NCBI GenBank assembly: GCA_029242355.1
Contig: JAQWUC010000033.1
Coordinates: 1-34,043 of the forward strand
Direction of reading: 5' to 3'
Length of the DNA: 34,043 nt
Source: Paracoccaceae bacterium
GTDB lineage: Bacteria > Pseudomonadota > Alphaproteobacteria > Rhodobacterales > Rhodobacteraceae
Position 1 is the first letter of the stretch, and the number at the start of each line of letters is the position of its first letter. A program made the position numbers and the translations under genes. Below, one piece after another: positions 20,387-22,527 of this stretch. Below the pieces are notes generated by a model. It saw only the letters and a list, made by a program, of their open reading frames with translations, did no database searches and had not been told where the DNA came from.

Positions 20387-21010
20387 CTACCCGCTGGTTA
20401 TGTCCACGAATTGACCTTGAAAACCATTTAGATAACCAAAATTTTTATTCGTTGTTTTTGTTGAAAGAAGTGAGAAAATTTTGTTCTGATCGTCTATAAA
20501 AAGTTCTACCCTTGGAATGAATACTTTACCTTTTTTGTTTAGGTCTCTTTTGAACGTTGTAATTTGATCTGAAGGAATTCCCATGTTTTTAAGTAAATCA
20601 GGAAAATAGACTTCCGTAGTTTTATTTAAATAAGGAAAGAATCTTTTAAAGTTATTGTTAACGCGTACAACCCGAAGATTTTCATCTGCAAAATAGGCGG
20701 CAGTTATAGCATTTTCAAAATTAAAGAAACTTAATTCCACAATTTTCTTCTCATTTATAAATTCTTGTACATTATTTATAATACTTTGAAGTTTTCCAGT
20801 GATCGCGCCCCAAGTAGTTACGCAGTAGGGAACACAATATGTCAGAGCAACTTTTAGTGGGTGGGGGTAATTGCCGACCAATATATCATCGCCATGGTTA
20901 ATGCTCGTTAGAATAGTTCCAACTACACAAGCTGTTAAGAATGCTTTGACTGGGGTTCCACCGCCAAACGCAAGTTCGACAAAGCTTTGATTTTTCTTAT
21001 GAAATTCCAT
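20387..21010 (-). CDS. NrtS-like membrane domain fused to a PAS-like domain
   Basis: A 207-residue two-part protein. Residues about 20-75 (VKAFLTACVVGTILTSINHG, then KVALTYCVPYCVTTW) match the pattern of NrtS, a small two-helix nitrate/nitrite transporter described in marine cyanobacteria: helix, INxGD, second helix with LTYxVPYxV. Residues about 82-207 (LSFFNFENAITAAYFADENL ... YLNGFQGQFVDIT) are a PAS-like sensor domain. That domain is about 50 percent identical, by eye over about 125 positions, to the N-terminal domain of the divergent cyclase. The gene is monocistronic on the minus strand with AAGAGA before the ATG. Inference: a membrane protein that couples anion passage or sensing to a cytoplasmic sensor. 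Confidence 0.72.
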   Translation of the reverse strand: MEFHKKNQSFVELAFGGGTPVKAFLTACVVGTILTSINHGDDILVGNYPHPLKVALTYCVPYCVTTWGAITGKLQSIINNVQEFINEKKIVELSFFNFENAITAAYFADENLRVVRVNNNFKRFFPYLNKTTEVYFPDLLKNMGIPSDQITTFKRDLNKKGKVFIPRVELFIDDQNKIFSLLSTKTTNKNFGYLNGFQGQFVDITSG

Positions 21011-21132
21011 AAAGCGTTCTCTTCAGTCGTTTTGAAAGTCGGTGATTGACCTGACCATAGTTTTAAATTTCCTAAAAGGCTATCCTTTTTCTATGCTTGA
21101 ATTTGATTGAAATTTATATATAGCGTACTGAG

Positions 21133-21175
21133 TTGAATTCATTATGCTATGGTGTTACGAATTGAAACCATTATG
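21133..21175. repeat. Direct repeat upstream of the PAS-cyclase gene
   Basis: TTGAATTCATTATG (21133-21146) recurs as TTGAAACCATTATG (21162-21175), 12 of 14 bases identical with a 29-base offset, in the gap between the NrtS-PAS and PAS-cyclase genes. Further TTGAA copies lie just upstream near 21098 and 21109. It may be a regulator site for one or both genes. A short AAAAGG/CCTTTT hairpin is at 21074-21089. Confidence 0.3.
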
Positions 21176-21246
21176 TTGCTAGAATTTTTTATATTTTCTT
21201 TGTGAGAGATTACTAATGGACAAAATATTTGGCTGAGTATTAAAAA

Positions 21247-22527
21247 ATGCAGATAGAAGATTTCGTAAAAAAACAAACCATTCTTGATTTGAGTTTTTTT
21301 AATTTCTCGAACGCTGTGACAGCTGCTTACTTTGCATCAGAAGACTTAACGATCTTGAGGGCAAATAAAAATTTTGCCACCTTTTTTCCAATACTAGCAA
21401 ACGTAGAAAATGTTTCCTTTTTAGATATTCTTGATCAATTAGGAGTCCCAAAAATCCAAATTGAAGAATTTAAAACGAGACTTAAAGAAAAAGGTCAAGT
21501 GATTATTCCGAAAGTAGAGATCACAATCGAGGAAACTACAAAAATTTATTCTCTTTTGTCAAAGGTCACAAAAAATTCAGATTTTCAGTATTTAAATGGG
21601 GTTCAAGGTCAATTTATTGACCGAACTTTAGAAAGTAAGCTAAAAGAGGAAAAGGAATTACTTCTTAATCAAAAGTTAAGGGATCAAGAAATAATTGAAG
21701 AAAAGAGTGCGCGCCTTGAAAGCATAGCAACACGATTAGCAAAATATTTATCACCACAGGTGTATAAAAGTATTTTTGATAGTGAAACTATTGACAAGGA
21801 ATCGCATAACCGACGAAATTTAACCGTATTTTTTTCTGATATAGCTAGCTTTACAGATTTAAGTGACACGTTAGAACCCGAAAAACTTGCTAAAATAATT
21901 AATAATTATTTATCTGAGATGACGACTATTGCAATAGAGTGTGGTGGTACCATCGACAAATTTATTGGTGATGCCGTGATGGTATTTTTTGGGGATCCTG
22001 AATCACTCGGCGAAGAACAAGATGCGCTTAATTGCATTGAAATGGCCCTCCAGATGCAAAAAAGAATTAAAGAACTTAGAGCATATTACGAACGTCTTGG
22101 CGTACCAGGTGGTCTTGATGTGCGAATGGGTATTTCTACTGGATTTTGCACTGTGGGTAATTTTGGATCTGACCAACGGCTGGATTATACCGCTTTAGGA
22201 AGTCCAGTTAATTTAGCCGCTCGATTGCAGGGACTTTCTCCAAAAAATGAGATCTTAATAGAAGAGGCTACACTTCAATTAGTAAAGAGCAATGTAAAAA
22301 CAGATTATTTCAATAAAATCACGCCAAAGGGGTTTTCAAGACCGATTGAAGTGCACCAAGTTGATGACTTTATTTCTGTACAACATAAAAAAAACCGTCA
22401 ACAATTCTCGCACCGTGGAAGCCACGTTGATATAAATGTGTTTGATACATCCGATATCAATGCAGCTATAGAAGAGCTGAAGAAAGTGAAAATTGAGTTT
22501 GAGGCCCGTTTAAAAAAGAGAAACTAA
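21247..22527 (+). CDS. PAS-like domain class III adenylate cyclase
   Basis: A 426-residue cytoplasmic cyclase. The PAS-like domain spans residues about 1-126, a coiled coil about 128-165, and the catalytic domain about 190-345. All active-site residues are present: metal Asp198 (FFSDIASF) and Asp242 (GDAVMVFFG), adenine-reading Lys238 and Asp313 (LDYTALG), Asn322 and Arg326 (VNLAARLQ). The Lys/Asp pair predicts cAMP rather than cGMP production. A charged, helical C-terminal tail follows (about 380-426). The PAS-like part is a close relative of that in the divergent NrtS fusion, suggesting a shared ligand or mutual interaction. Confidence 0.88.
   Translation: MQIEDFVKKQTILDLSFFNFSNAVTAAYFASEDLTILRANKNFATFFPILANVENVSFLDILDQLGVPKIQIEEFKTRLKEKGQVIIPKVEITIEETTKIYSLLSKVTKNSDFQYLNGVQGQFIDRTLESKLKEEKELLLNQKLRDQEIIEEKSARLESIATRLAKYLSPQVYKSIFDSETIDKESHNRRNLTVFFSDIASFTDLSDTLEPEKLAKIINNYLSEMTTIAIECGGTIDKFIGDAVMVFFGDPESLGEEQDALNCIEMALQMQKRIKELRAYYERLGVPGGLDVRMGISTGFCTVGNFGSDQRLDYTALGSPVNLAARLQGLSPKNEILIEEATLQLVKSNVKTDYFNKITPKGFSRPIEVHQVDDFISVQHKKNRQQFSHRGSHVDINVFDTSDINAAIEELKKVKIEFEARLKKRN

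Follow-up and report, generated by a model that had tools for sequence, protein, structure and literature searches.

Bacterial cyclases and chemoreceptors mostly receive their membrane input through domains that are large or well known. In the Pseudomonas aeruginosa cyclase CyaB, a MASE2 membrane domain is part of the cyclase chain. Described NrtS proteins are small and stand-alone, and NrtS reportedly functions as a nitrate/nitrite transporter, a role said to have been assigned to it by Maeda et al. in 2019. CyaB itself has been reported to be activated by 5-25 mM bicarbonate (PMC8230467).

This work describes a locus in which an NrtS hairpin fused to a PAS domain faces a predicted PAS-containing adenylate cyclase. 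The locus lies in a 34,043-nucleotide stretch of DNA (referred to here as the window) from a marine Rhodobacteraceae genome. Its features are as follows.

20387..21010, minus strand: NrtS-PAS fusion gene, 207 aa (open reading frame; NF038050 above cut-off; predicted PAS fold)
20798..20944, minus strand: NrtS two-helix membrane hairpin, residues 23-71, motif INHGD...LTYCVPYCVTTWG (NF038050 match)
20396..20773, minus strand: fused PAS domain, residues 80-205 (51% identity to the cyclase PAS)
21011..21246, no strand: divergent intergenic region, 236 bp between start codons (open reading frame coordinates)
21247..22527, plus strand: PAS-cyclase, 426 aa (open reading frame; PF00211; structure model)
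21250..21627, plus strand: cyclase PAS domain, residues 2-127 (alignment with the fused PAS; model)
21625..21747, plus strand: 41-residue helix between the PAS and catalytic domains, residues 127-167, in the position of a signalling helix (predicted helix)
21808..22332, plus strand: class III catalytic domain with D198, D242, K238, T315, N322, and R326 (PF00211; alignments)

The NrtS-PAS protein

The initial annotation had read the minus-strand protein as an NrtS-like domain joined to a PAS-like domain, and had made this reading depend on comparison of the membrane segment with the NrtS profile. The hairpin matches NF038050 (NCBIfam) at 38.7 bits (6.6e-10; profile positions 2-52 of 56), for which the curated cut-off is 25 bits. 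It is also ∼59-68% identical to the nrtS genes paired with cyclases in other genomes, and its motif residues are the same as those of the intact paired genes. At 207 aa including the PAS domain, the window protein is not a small stand-alone NrtS; the cyclase-paired nrtS genes of its relatives encode ∼85-110 aa and fall within that format.

Divergent PAS domains frequently escape profiles. A Pfam search of the NrtS-PAS protein recognized no domain, with no PAS profile at E<10, and the sole NCBIfam match to the PAS part was to DosP (0.021). A profile of the PAS family found no relative by sequence among solved structures. A search of viral contigs yielded no relative. The PAS half of the annotation is instead upheld by the predicted fold: block-mean pLDDT is ∼76-95 from residue 101 onward (the NrtS half of the model is of low confidence, mostly <60), and the structural matches listed are PAS or LOV domains, the best being the NifL PAS domain (PDB entry 2gj3; Z 12.6 over 117 residues, 4.0 Å). 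On this model, the second half of the protein has a divergent PAS fold. The domain ends in a DIT motif with the stop codon just after it and has no output domain.

The PAS-cyclase

The catalytic domain of the plus-strand protein belongs to PF00211 (Pfam, 1e-22). The metal-binding D198 and D242, together with N322, R326, and the K238/T315 adenine pair, are invariant across 17 aligned cyclase sequences, and the metal, transition-state, and adenine residues are all present in the window cyclase. The adenine pair aligns with those of CyaB and CyaC, which is the class IIIb pattern. Judged by these residues, the protein is a class IIIb-type adenylate cyclase with a complete catalytic set. The closest PDB structure to its catalytic domain is that of P. 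aeruginosa CyaB (47% identity, Z 25.5). MASE2 is absent from the chain, where Pfam gives the cyclase domain alone, and hydropathy analysis found no membrane segment except one weak stretch within the PAS domain. The helix that follows this PAS domain is placed like a signalling helix, as far as that concept is outlined in PMC1592074. A promoter scan of the 236-bp intergenic region gave no signal clearly exceeding chance.

The two PAS domains, which the initial annotation had judged by eye to be about half identical over some 125 residues without gaps, indeed share 51% identity and 70% positives over 126 residues, with no gaps (E 3e-42). This likeness, as aligned, is far beyond chance.

Conservation of the nrtS-cyclase pair

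Within a family sample of 395 genomes, the PAS-cyclase occurs in 16 and the close NrtS subtype in 9, all 9 being among the 16 (Fisher p 2e-14, not corrected for relatedness). Across all genome samples, 22 PAS-cyclase loci were found. The expectation that homologues of the two genes would lie near each other in relatives proved correct: they are neighbours in many genera, with nrtS adjacent to the cyclase at 12/22 loci. Nine of the 22 are operon-like, with nrtS directly upstream on the same strand (G038, G141, G246, G268, G305, G446, G478, a Tateyamaria MAG, and G1022 of another family); in the six loci measured, the two genes overlap by 4 nt at the closest and stand 72 bp apart at the widest. 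Two closely related loci (L015 and L019) have nrtS just downstream of the cyclase, and in the window it is divergent and fused to PAS. Normally, nrtS and the PAS-cyclase are separate genes. The predicted co-occurrence holds for nrtS and the PAS-cyclase, but the fused NrtS-PAS form was found, among the genomes sampled, in the window only, the source of which is a 61%-complete draft genome.

The pairing is looser in G337 (nrtS 3.1 kb away) and G327 (∼35 kb away). In G090 and G177, a decayed nrtS with stops and truncation persists upstream of the cyclase, which argues that the pair is old. No nrtS was found for 6 of the 22 cyclase loci (G033, G947, G129, G165, G173, and G297), among which are incomplete genomes or contigs; the cyclase may therefore work alone, a point that we count against a membrane-linked module, together with the downstream, divergent, and ∼35-kb-distant placements of nrtS. 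In the phylum and order samples, the PAS-cyclase was seen solely in this family; G1022 came from the class survey. The G297 PAS-cyclase (L032) reads as broken, its coding sequence falling into more than one frame through either a frameshift or a sequencing error. A 529-aa "open frame" in G038, a candidate NrtS-PAS-cyclase fusion, was ruled out because two stop codons separate the genes.

Origin of the fusion

The join between NrtS and PAS coincides with the expected end of nrtS and start of the cyclase. In a PAS tree with weak support overall, the fused PAS groups with that of G173 (84/79), near G090, and not with the PAS of the neighbouring cyclase. Constraining it as sister to the neighbour's PAS was marginally rejected (AU p 0.041). 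The initial annotation had proposed that one sensor domain was duplicated to yield the membrane and cAMP-making halves of a possible signalling module; homology of the two domains stands, while the tree and the AU test make local duplication doubtful. Recent copying of the neighbouring PAS is thus disfavoured by the phylogeny. Since other PAS domains lie nearer to the fused PAS in the tree than the neighbour's does, it is better explained, and probably so, as the remnant of an old nrtS-cya fusion from which the catalytic half was lost, possibly one acquired from a relative. None of seven relatives had the orthologues of the genes flanking the window locus in one place, and hence none offered a readable empty site.

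The NrtS-PAS gene may be decaying, a chance fusion left when a second nrtS-cya copy was deleted and without present function. The fusion was seen once, its PAS branch is long (1.12 changes per column), the GC content of its PAS part is low (30%), and two invariant residues have been lost, L143 and, where the domain joins the output helix, R204. We nevertheless regard decay as highly improbable. The 207-codon frame is intact, free of the stops and truncation of the decayed copies in G090 and G177, and its NrtS motif residues are common to intact paired nrtS genes. The fused PAS also keeps 22 of the 24 residues invariant among 16 cyclase PAS domains and is therefore not drifting freely.

NrtS joined to other signalling outputs

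Seven genomes from six families (G152, G528, G961, G843, G582, G1253, and G1383; loci L099, L100, L101, L103, L098, L180, and L182) also encode NrtS-like hairpins fused to the methyl-accepting chemotaxis protein (MCP) signalling domain. Pfam MCPsignal was confirmed in both of the fusions tested. Against NCBIfam, the MCP-fused hairpins tested fell below the NrtS cut-off or gave no score, yet a profile built from six of them matches the NrtS profile at 99.3%. In three further cases (G863, G895, and a Vibrio sp. THAF190c plasmid), a soluble MCP gene directly follows nrtS.

Several other arrangements were encountered. On the Vibrio plasmid (L037:5974-7133), nrtS overlaps the soluble MCP gene, which is followed by an EAL gene; an apparent NrtS with PAS-MCP at this site was rejected because the frame had been wrongly extended beyond the stop codon of NrtS, and the real gene is the overlapping soluble MCP without PAS. 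A 319-aa frame with NrtS in G948 was also set aside, as it runs into an unrelated gene with its own start and is probably an upstream read-through frame. In G1150 (L136:5341-7584), nrtS adjoins a different PAS-cyclase of 747 aa; in G1015 (L139:2404-4923), a Na/H exchanger with a cyclic-nucleotide-binding domain is divergent to nrtS; and in G457 (L055:1417-1965), one protein apparently contains two NrtS-like hairpins in tandem.

In two unbiased surveys of the NrtS family, 5 of the 34 matches outside the window were fused or adjacent to a cyclase or MCP, and the other 29 had neither within ∼1.5 kb. NrtS proteins are thus free-standing for the most part but have been drawn into signalling repeatedly. 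The window fusion is one variant of a wider coupling of NrtS to signalling outputs that is apparently undescribed; our literature search, incomplete in coverage, found no paper on NrtS signalling or NrtS chemotaxis.

Proposed mechanism

The reading that we favour, and to which we give an even chance, is a membrane-linked cAMP module in which NrtS would act as the membrane input controlling the cyclase and the fused PAS would dock the cyclase. The ancestral unit would consist of two genes, first nrtS and then one for a soluble class IIIb adenylate cyclase with a PAS domain and helix ahead of the catalytic domain. The outputs (MCP, PAS, and cyclase) all lie in the cytoplasm, so the C terminus of NrtS is expected there as well, with its NHGD loop in the periplasm. 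The hairpin, with both termini in the cytoplasm, could then build an oligomeric membrane element that controls the cyclase physically or functionally, whether as a tether, an ion path, or a transceptor. Anion occupancy or flux at NrtS would pass through the PAS domain and signalling helix to cAMP output, presumably in that direction. PAS domains commonly dimerize, so NrtS-PAS could hold or bias the cyclase dimer; in the window, its PAS most likely would make mixed contacts with the PAS of the neighbouring cyclase and keep the enzyme at the membrane. Given that the pair recurs in relatives and that chemoreceptor fusions occur elsewhere, NrtS, though classed as a "transporter", probably also serves as an input for signals at the membrane.

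Tentatively, and with the balance somewhat against it, this idea can be extended to NrtS as a transceptor family, in which a two-helix anion pore would directly gate cytoplasmic outputs and would have been taken up by cyclases and chemoreceptors on repeated occasions. Its link to the cyclase in the window would be a hetero-PAS contact.

The partnership could instead be functional and not physical. NrtS would then be an ordinary low-affinity anion transporter, the cyclase would sense the imported ion or a cytoplasmic cue via its PAS domain, cAMP would feed back on uptake, and the window fusion would be neutral or minor. The separate genes of nearly all genomes, the looser pairings, and the many NrtS proteins elsewhere that are unaccompanied agree with this, but NrtS is fused to precisely the partner-type PAS, with its conserved residues, and hairpin-MCP fusions recur; both facts indicate physical coupling. 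NirB, the one nitrate/nitrite enzyme scored, is above cut-off in only 4/20 carrier genomes, so that nitrite assimilation via NirB is not common to carriers. We consider a purely functional partnership unlikely.

The scarcity of NirB is also compatible with a different ion. Since class IIIb enzymes include the reportedly bicarbonate-activated CyaB, bicarbonate is a serious candidate, and by this analogy a serious alternative to nitrate, as the signal. In its full form, this explanation would have an NrtS subtype pass or sense HCO3-, which is planar and monovalent like nitrate, with the class IIIb cyclase as a carbonate-responsive output. The alignment of the K/T specificity pair with CyaB and CyaC fits, as does the 47% identity to CyaB. 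A class IIIb signature by itself is no proof of a bicarbonate response, though. The described NrtS substrates are nitrate and nitrite, and no NrtS is known to transport bicarbonate. The full bicarbonate module seems to us very unlikely.

Close to the locus in some carriers, possible cAMP receivers are an MscS-type channel with a cyclic-nucleotide domain, encoded downstream of cya-nrtS (L015:7647-9329 and L106:11232-12914), and small cyclic-nucleotide-binding proteins, encoded beside a putative metallo-beta-lactamase-fold hydrolase gene (L024, L107, L116, and L118). In the window genome, a single small protein that binds cyclic nucleotides is encoded at the end of a contig. Five loci have another, distinct cyclase-domain gene close to the PAS-cyclase (L015:4221-5954, with kin in L106, L113, L115, and L135).

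If the membrane-linked module is correct, an ion-transporter hairpin of ∼50 residues would be a minimal ion-sensing input, serving cAMP synthesis in one bacterial group and chemotaxis outputs in others, and NrtS would be recast from a pure transporter to a signalling component. The two-gene nrtS-cya unit offers a simple system for asking whether an ion path drives an adenylate cyclase, and by which anion.

Comparison with known systems

The window protein resembles described NrtS (NF038050) in its two-helix hairpin and above-cut-off family score, but differs in its fused PAS domain and in belonging to a subtype paired with a cyclase. With CyaB, the system shares a 47% identical catalytic domain, the K/T pair, and the combination of membrane input and cytoplasmic cyclase. 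In contrast to CyaB, the system has its membrane part on another chain, the two-helix NrtS(-PAS), instead of MASE2, and a soluble PAS domain precedes the catalytic domain. PAS/LOV-regulated nucleotide cyclases have the same order of PAS, helix, and catalytic domain in a single chain; here, however, the PAS family is one that Pfam does not recognize, and a second PAS copy resides on a membrane protein. Finally, in MCP chemoreceptors of the NrtS-MCP type, the membrane portion of the signalling protein is again an NrtS-like hairpin, although their output is of the chemotaxis type and not cAMP, and those of their hairpins that were tested fall below the curated NrtS cut-off.
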